The position numbers and the translations under genes are program-made. A stretch of 21,302 nt of DNA from IMG/VR virus record IMGVR_UViG_3300005526_000035, positions 1 to 21,302 of that record. The stretch is one strand, 5' to 3'. Under the pieces are notes generated by a model. The model saw only the letters and a program-made list of their open reading frames with translations, searched no databases and was not told where the DNA came from. The first letter of the stretch is position 1. Each line of letters opens with the position of its first letter. Origin of the DNA: a virus. Positions 2,102-2,644 of the stretch are shown here, one piece after another.

Positions 2102-2644
2102 GTGTTCCTGCTGATAGTTACCGACGAGGTCGGCGACCCTCGCAAGCTCGCCGCCGCGCTCGCCGACGCACCCGGCCTCGCGTTCGAGCCGATCGCCGGC
2201 GACGGCTGGCTCGTACACGTCGACGTCGACGACGATAACGACGACGACGACGCGAAACGGCGCTCGTCGCGAGCCCGGCAGCGCCGATACCGGGCGCGGA
2301 AACGAGGCGACGACGTTACGCGCGGCGTTACGCGCGACGACGCGCCGCGTAACGCCGTTACGCGTAACGCGCGTAACGCTGACGACGCCGAAATTCTCGA
2401 AATTCGGCCGGGTAGTAACTCTCTCCCCTCTAGGGGAGAGAGAGTTACTGCCGGAAACGTTACGCGAAACGTTACGGCCGTTACGCGTAACGCCGTTACG
2501 CGCGGTGACGCGAGCGTTACGCGTAACGCTGCCGACGACTGGAAAGCTGACCGGGCGCCGCTGACCGACGACGAGCGCGCCCGCGCTCGCGCCGGCCTCG
2601 ACGCCGCACGTACCGCACTACGCCGAACCGGGAGCAAAACGTAA
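2102..2644 (+). CDS. VTRN-repeat protein encoded over an iteron-like array
   Basis: GTG at 2102 is preceded by GGGAGG at good distance. The 180-residue product has an N-terminal globular segment (about 1-48), an Asp-rich stretch (VDVDDDNDDDD), a strongly basic segment (KRRSSRARQRRYRARKRG, about 52-69), then many VTRN/VTRD/VTRG units (about 72-143) and a helical C-terminus (LTDDERARARAGLDAARTALRR). The basic segment would bind nucleic acid. Similar VTRD/VTRN-rich proteins occur in actinophages and actinobacteria near replication genes, from memory. The VTRN units are simply the translation of GTTACGCGTAAC repeats, so selection may be acting on the DNA as much as on the protein. The function is unknown; a replication-linked DNA-binding role is an inference. 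Confidence 0.6.
   Translation: MFLLIVTDEVGDPRKLAAALADAPGLAFEPIAGDGWLVHVDVDDDNDDDDAKRRSSRARQRRYRARKRGDDVTRGVTRDDAPRNAVTRNARNADDAEILEIRPGSNSLPSRGERVTAGNVTRNVTAVTRNAVTRGDASVTRNAADDWKADRAPLTDDERARARAGLDAARTALRRTGSKT
2315..2527 (+). repeat. GTTACG/CGTAAC iteron-like array, candidate replication origin
   Basis: Thirteen copies of GTTACG or its reverse complement CGTAAC lie in 213 bp. Plus-strand copies start at 2315, 2327, 2357, 2459, 2471, 2480, 2495 and 2516. Minus-strand copies start at 2348, 2363, 2372, 2486 and 2522. Three of these pair into perfect 12-bp palindromes GTTACGCGTAAC at 2357-2368, 2480-2491 and 2516-2527. The copies form two clusters either side of a 2378-2458 island that is less GC-rich and contains a direct repeat CGAAATTC (2389-2396 and 2398-2405) plus a long hairpin. 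Iterons flanking an easily melted island are the usual layout of an iteron-type origin, but the role here is inferred. Confidence 0.6.
2411..2452. other. Long hairpin inside the iteron array
   Basis: The arm at 2411-2428 pairs with 2433-2452 around a 4-nt TCTA loop. The stem has about 17 pairs, a single 2-nt (AG) bulge on the right arm and one G-T pair. It includes a pyrimidine run (CTCTCTCCCC) facing a purine run (GGGGAGAGAGAG). No T-run follows, so it is not a classic terminator. It lies within a coding frame and between two clusters of iterons. Confidence 0.7.

Follow-up and report, generated by a model that had tools for sequence, protein, structure and literature searches.

A phage protein that probably binds a CGTTACG site array in its own gene, at a likely lambda O-type origin

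We propose that a small phage protein binds an array of sites within its own gene, and that this array is probably a replication origin of the lambda O type; on balance, we judge this reading to be the likely one. In the model, a basic alpha-helix (residues ~51-68) would read CGTTACG half-sites, with GTGACG as a minor variant. Shortly after the helix codons come fifteen half-sites, split into two clusters with an AT-richer element and a hairpin between them, so that the protein would load onto the gene that encodes it. There it would most likely serve to assemble an initiator complex at a replication origin inside the gene, much as lambda O assembles one on the iterons of gene O. Self-binding is very probable because the pairing of helix and array recurs in unrelated phage genes. 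Physical binding, a bZIP-like mode of binding and origin function are what we infer from the patterns described below. The window, meaning the whole stretch of viral DNA analyzed, is a record of 21,302 bases with ~69% GC. Its relevant features are the following.

1 to 573, + strand: exonuclease, truncated at the 5' end where the record begins (PHROG 298, E 6e-28)
570 to 1655, + strand: RecT-like ssDNA-annealing protein (PHROG 4171, E 2e-46)
2102 to 2644, + strand: gene of the array-bearing protein, an ORF of 180 amino acids with a GTG start
2252 to 2305, + strand: basic module AKRRSSRARQRRYRARKR, residues 51-68, the proposed DNA-recognition helix, which fits the module consensus
2315 to 2377, unstranded: left half-array, six GTTAC/GTAAC half-sites with one perfect palindrome (2357-2368)
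2389 to 2405, unstranded: AT-richer island, a candidate unwinding site, with CGAAATTC twice (2389-2396 and 2398-2405)
2411 to 2452, unstranded: long hairpin GGTAGTAACTCTCTCCCCTCT / AGGGGAGAGAGAGTTACTGCC, with a half-site at each end
2459 to 2527, unstranded: right half-array, seven half-sites with perfect palindromes at 2480-2491 and 2516-2527

The exonuclease and RecT-like genes lie upstream of the array gene, as the sequence-only reading had noticed when it placed the array beside recombination genes. HNH, terminase and structural genes follow, with a putative terminase small-subunit ORF ~2 kb downstream. The 180-residue protein consists of an N-terminal part of ~50 residues, the basic helix, a disordered stretch encoded by the array and C-terminal helices. 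Its AlphaFold2 model, of low confidence overall, has a helix at 47-75 and disorder at residues 73-143. The protein has no Pfam match and no recognizable initiator domain (winged-helix or helicase-loader). Its only family match is a weak one to PHROG 2447, 'replication initiation protein' (E 1.9e-4), which may stem from the module and array alone.

The array is a local concentration of a word that is not enriched overall. GTTACG occurs 24 times in the record against 21.8 expected from composition, a total not above chance, and 13 of the 24 fall within 2315-2527, ~1% of the record. The perfect palindrome GTTACGCGTAAC occurs three times in the record (2357, 2480 and 2516), each time inside the array. 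The thirteen copies and three palindromes reported by the sequence-only reading were thus recovered, and the palindrome is not equally common elsewhere. The count of GTTAC/GTAAC half-sites is 15 rather than 13 because each hairpin end (2415 and 2444) carries one. We also located the two clusters, the less GC-rich island with its direct repeat and the long hairpin that had been described between them; the AT-richer element is short. Folded as RNA, the hairpin at 2411-2452 reaches -35.1 kcal/mol (z -4.8), and folded as DNA, -18.8 (z -4.6). None of 200 shuffles matched its stability, and 7 of 1000 synonymous redraws using the phage's own codon usage did. A contig scan did not find the exact hairpin in other viral contigs.

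The array is selected at the DNA level and not as a peptide. All nine of its valine codons are GTT, a codon that accounts for 5.8% of valines in eleven other genes of the record. When synonymous codons were sampled from the phage's own usage, 5000 redraws gave a mean of 4.0 half-sites and a maximum of 11, compared with 16 in the gene; for CGTTACG the mean was 1.7 and the maximum 7, compared with 13. A homologue (L129) that is 55% identical and has the same exonuclease and RecT neighborhood is informative at the right hairpin arm. There GTTAC is spelled across GTG-TTA-CTG (VLL), and the window has GTT-ACT (VT) at this place: the DNA word is kept while the peptide changes. The uniform GTT codons and this frame change bear out the idea that the VTRN codons echo a DNA repeat; homologues do not combine VTRN units with codons that vary freely. 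In the window, in L129 and in a further relative (L126), two half-arrays enclose a hairpin that has an AATT/AATTC element next to it. The hairpin shape is common to all three, and the stem bases and encoded peptides differ. Both relatives also retain the module, the arrays and the AATT element.

The basic helix and the array are strongly linked genetically. The module consensus, built on 30 array-associated proteins, is [N/A/S]xxRQxx[Y/F/H]Rx[R/K], typically YRxRK, and the window version is SRARQRRYRARK. When viral contigs were scanned for VTRNVTRN regardless of codon choice, the hits included many unrelated phage genes with a basic motif immediately ahead of the repeats, such as RQARYREKKR, RQAKYREKQK and RQRRYRERKR. 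For an unbiased test, phage contigs were searched with back-translated helix patterns alone, which gave 23 non-redundant loci. Of 512 strand-collapsed pentamers, GTTAC/GTAAC showed the highest enrichment over the 240 bases that followed (71 occurrences against 6.8 expected). At least two half-sites were present at 14 of the 23 loci; random placement gave a mean of 1.1 and a maximum of 6 in 5000 trials. In the reverse test, a DNA-only pattern often led to a helix upstream (L129, L130, L132, L134, L135, L046 and L126). The sequence-only reading had guessed that the basic segment could bind its own gene. Linkage and sequence support this well, and strong independent support comes from the power of the helix by itself to predict GTTAC arrays in phage genes of unrelated kinds. 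We conclude that the helix probably recognizes CGTTACG. No earlier report of the helix-array pairing was found in the open-access text searched, and the correspondence of helix to site is apparently undescribed.

We compared the half-sites themselves across 34 non-redundant arrays containing 227 half-sites. The consensus word is CGTTACG: C precedes GTTAC in 191 of 227 cases, at a base that the code leaves unfixed, and G follows in 148. GTAAC is read as VT (66) about as often as [RSGC]N (85), and the frame that would make a stop is never used. Before AAC, codons of the form xGT account for 76 of 115 cases inside arrays and for 36 of 147 outside them in the genes (p 1e-11). The same form is in excess before GAC (42 of 141 against 24 of 245 elsewhere in the genes, p 8e-7), which indicates that GTGAC is a second, weaker half-site; there is no significant excess in arrays before AAT or GAT. 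Spacing and orientation vary, so a fixed dimer spacing is unsupported. The 75 nucleotides after the array average 50% AT in the non-redundant set, compared with 45% for the gene. One locus (L303:9393-9630) has the helix SAERQRRYRERKK, then an array of GTGAC/GTCAC only, including GTGACGTCAC, and then an ETETETD repeat; it is possibly a specificity variant.

These data bear on whether the sites act in DNA at all. An arginine-rich helix could act on RNA instead, recognizing the repeats or the hairpin of its own transcript in the way that lambda N recognizes boxB. The module is arginine-rich, the hairpin is very stable as RNA, and homologues keep the stem with a changed sequence. We nevertheless hold this to be very unlikely. 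Half-sites occur in both orientations (151:76), which fits double-stranded DNA better than RNA; the GTTACNNGTAAC palindromes leave a two-base loop, too short for an RNA hairpin; and some arrays are intergenic (L124, below). Least probable of all is that the array consists of neutral low-complexity VTRN repeats, or arose by slippage, and has no function as DNA. Phage proteins often have repetitive linkers, and the record-wide GTTACG total is unremarkable. The choice of codons, conservation independent of frame, the xGT rule, the flanking C and the link to the module all weigh against this reading.

Most genes that host a helix and array are replication initiators, drawn from several PHROG families (270, 678 O-like, 10469 and 9327). 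The unit is also found in two terminase small subunits (PHROG 1496, E ~1e-30), in a portal gene (L086, PF06381) and in small proteins without known domains, including that of the window. In the terminase subunits (L151:292-861 and L305:7058-7843), the helix precedes the terminase domain and is accompanied by a short GTTAC/GTGAC array, suggesting a possible parallel to a packaging site. One initiator family has a second, nearly invariant VTRNVTRN inside its N-terminal domain (A6 columns 50-57; L087, L011 and others), so these genes hold two separate half-site clusters. In a small protein on the minus strand (L317:7108), the GTTAC array precedes the basic helix. An intergenic array (L124:5517-5713) combines ~12 GTTAC half-sites with an inverted repeat of a C-run and a G-run; it is not crossed by a long reading frame, and no helix was seen in the stretch examined. 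The closely related L125, L131 and L137 also carry an intergenic array of the same word.

The terminase and portal genes, each with a module and two to four half-sites, raise the alternative that the module binds the array to package DNA, with the array serving as a pac/cos-like site or as a general tether. We consider this improbable: the window gene lies near recT, the putative terminase small-subunit ORF is farther downstream (~2 kb), replication genes predominate among the carriers, and genes of the window type contain far more half-sites than terminase genes do.

The same non-initiator carriers (TerS L151 and L305; portal L086) could instead be read as self-linkage in the service of regulation. 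The array would then be an autoregulatory or self-marking site and not an origin, with the protein limiting its own transcription or marking its genome. Such marking has a precedent in the aba DNA element, which overlaps the start of bstA and marks the prophage that carries it (PMC8585504). Three nucleotidyltransferase-like genes that start with MSTSAERQRRRRARL or similar (L172, L214 and L239) carry GTTACNNGTAAC palindromes a short way before the start codon, a placement suggestive of promoter autoregulation by a related basic N-terminus. The lack of initiator domains in the window protein also suits this alternative. We think it unlikely, though worth serious consideration, since most carriers are initiators, the arrays are placed where known in-gene origins sit, and simple repression needs no conserved hairpin and AATT element within the array.

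Searches for relatives of the window gene returned little. We obtained nothing by tblastn of the protein in phages or by a close-relative scan of viral contigs, an alignment-based scan recovered only the contig of L129, and 395 bacterial genomes contained no relative; the lineage therefore looks rare. A 51-residue query of module plus array also returned nothing by tblastn, probably because of low-complexity masking. We rejected GTTACNNGTAAC pairs alone as a diagnostic. In bacterial genomes most are non-coding, and many resemble what we take to be GntR-type operators (ATGTTACCGGTAACAT). Only intragenic arrays with the module were counted for this reason. Gammaproteobacterial GTTACCGGTAACATGTTACCGGTAAC double palindromes (L156, L181, L202 and others) are likewise mostly non-coding and GntR-operator-like. 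Prevotellaceae sequences (L152:994-1152 and L179:74-274) contain tandem repeats of 42-bp period with GTTACATGTAAC/GTTACACGTAAC palindromes, which, as far as we have seen, are unrelated to the phage helix. Weak module matches in bacterial genomes (E above 1e-4) mostly had no arrays and look like noise.

Clustered, specific repeats within a coding sequence and selected as DNA are what the window offers toward an origin. The prevalence of initiators among the carriers and the similar placement of known origins (lambda O, Tuc2009 rep and 80alpha gp20) favor an origin; the presence of helix-array units in terminase and portal genes, which are non-initiators, speaks against it. A model of one relative has a well-predicted N-terminal domain, a helix at the module, a disordered linker encoded by the array and a C-terminal helical domain; a Foldseek search with the model of a relative found no significant match. 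This layout resembles that of lambda O, and together with the annotated in-gene origins of Tuc2009 and 80alpha it makes an origin the best reading for the helix-array family. The case is weaker, yet plausible, for the window gene because its protein has no recognizable initiator domains. A GC-skew analysis gave no clear turning point at the array, a result that neither supports nor refutes an origin. Self-binding, as first proposed from the sequence, is well supported as a probable role, and the origin role is plausible, with the conditional standing it had then.

It is possible, though we put it forward tentatively, that the helix and array form a portable cassette: a bZIP-like helix with its own CGTTACG (or GTGACG) array in nearby codons, installed in unrelated phage genes and returning each product to the DNA that encodes it. 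If so, it would represent widespread bZIP-type DNA reading without a zipper in prokaryotic systems and a general device for cis-targeting. In-gene phage origins have been known singly, usually without a recognizable code between protein and repeats. A short helix that predicts its own site throughout numerous phage families would make origins and self-binding proteins findable from sequence, including in phages that cannot be cultured.

We compared the unit to known in-gene origins. Lambdoid origins (lambda and Stx phages) lie in the middle of gene O, with iterons and an AT-rich tract (PMC7466680). As in lambda O, initiator-binding repeats would lie in the initiator's own coding sequence, extra iterons mean extra residues, the repeats are followed by a candidate unwinding element and the encoded stretch is a linker. 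Lambda iterons are longer, whereas the phage arrays have CGTTACG half-sites of variable spacing and orientation; a separate short basic helix is the proposed reader, and the window protein lacks O-like domains. Two rep genes of Gram-positive phages also have repeats in the initiator linker: Tuc2009 orf16, whose annotation reads 'contains origin of replication', and 80alpha gp20, with an annotated in-gene rep_origin. Their repeats differ (CAACCAA and CCGTTAA-type). The in-gene origins of Tuc2009, 80alpha and TP901-1 that we examined have neither a GTTAC array nor a YRxRK module. A closer counterpart is the replisome organizer of Enterococcus phage phiEf11, whose module NRIRQAKYREKQK precedes seven GTTAC half-sites and, after these, an AT-rich tail (DKDIDKEID); other annotated initiators similar to it also have the module and GTTAC half-sites. 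It differs in having a full initiator N-terminal domain (PF09681), a much less GC-rich sequence and fewer half-sites, and no central hairpin was seen. Iteron plasmid origins are unlike the arrays, with long, uniformly spaced direct repeats in place of short in-gene half-sites in both orientations and mixed spacing.

The helix was also compared to bZIP proteins. The Pap1/Yap1 basic region, NxxAQxxFR, reads TTAC/TGAC half-sites (1gd2; PMC8450079, PMC3865217). The phage motif [N/A/S]xxRQxxYR, which goes with GTTAC and to a minor extent GTGAC, aligns with it ungapped and in the same register. The bZIP half-site, TTAC or TGAC, is matched by association, in the associated word CGTTACG and its GTGACG variant. 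By hhalign, the module matched Pap1/Yap1-type sequences at E 2e-4 with none of 300 column shuffles as good, in a small comparison set of five sequences. The family profile is in register with the bZIP signature N-x3-[A/Q]-x2-[S/C/F]-R, with N in only 13 of 30; in the window protein Ser takes the place of N and is followed by Gln60, Tyr63 and Arg64. Pap1/Yap1 proteins have a leucine zipper and Ala at -4, whereas the module comes from prokaryotic viruses, has no zipper and has an invariant Arg at -4. In the window, no leucine zipper follows the basic region, which runs straight into the VTRN stretch encoded by the array and predicted to be disordered from residue 76. Pfam and PDB sequence searches with the module gave no bZIP match. 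The module may work like a bZIP basic region; we do not class it as a bZIP protein. bZIP proteins are thought to be eukaryotic in origin, and the bacterial repressor RptR has been proposed to be bZIP-like, with two helices in one major groove at a short palindrome (PMC12255303). RptR is similar in being prokaryotic and recognizing a short palindrome, but it is an all-helical dimeric repressor whose site, TAGCTA, lies in its own promoter, with no in-gene array. The resemblance to Pap1/Yap1 raises a testable question of common origin or convergence. Set beside these systems, the phage gene shows a variant layout, of either the in-gene origin or the self-binding kind, and an apparently novel correspondence between helix and site.
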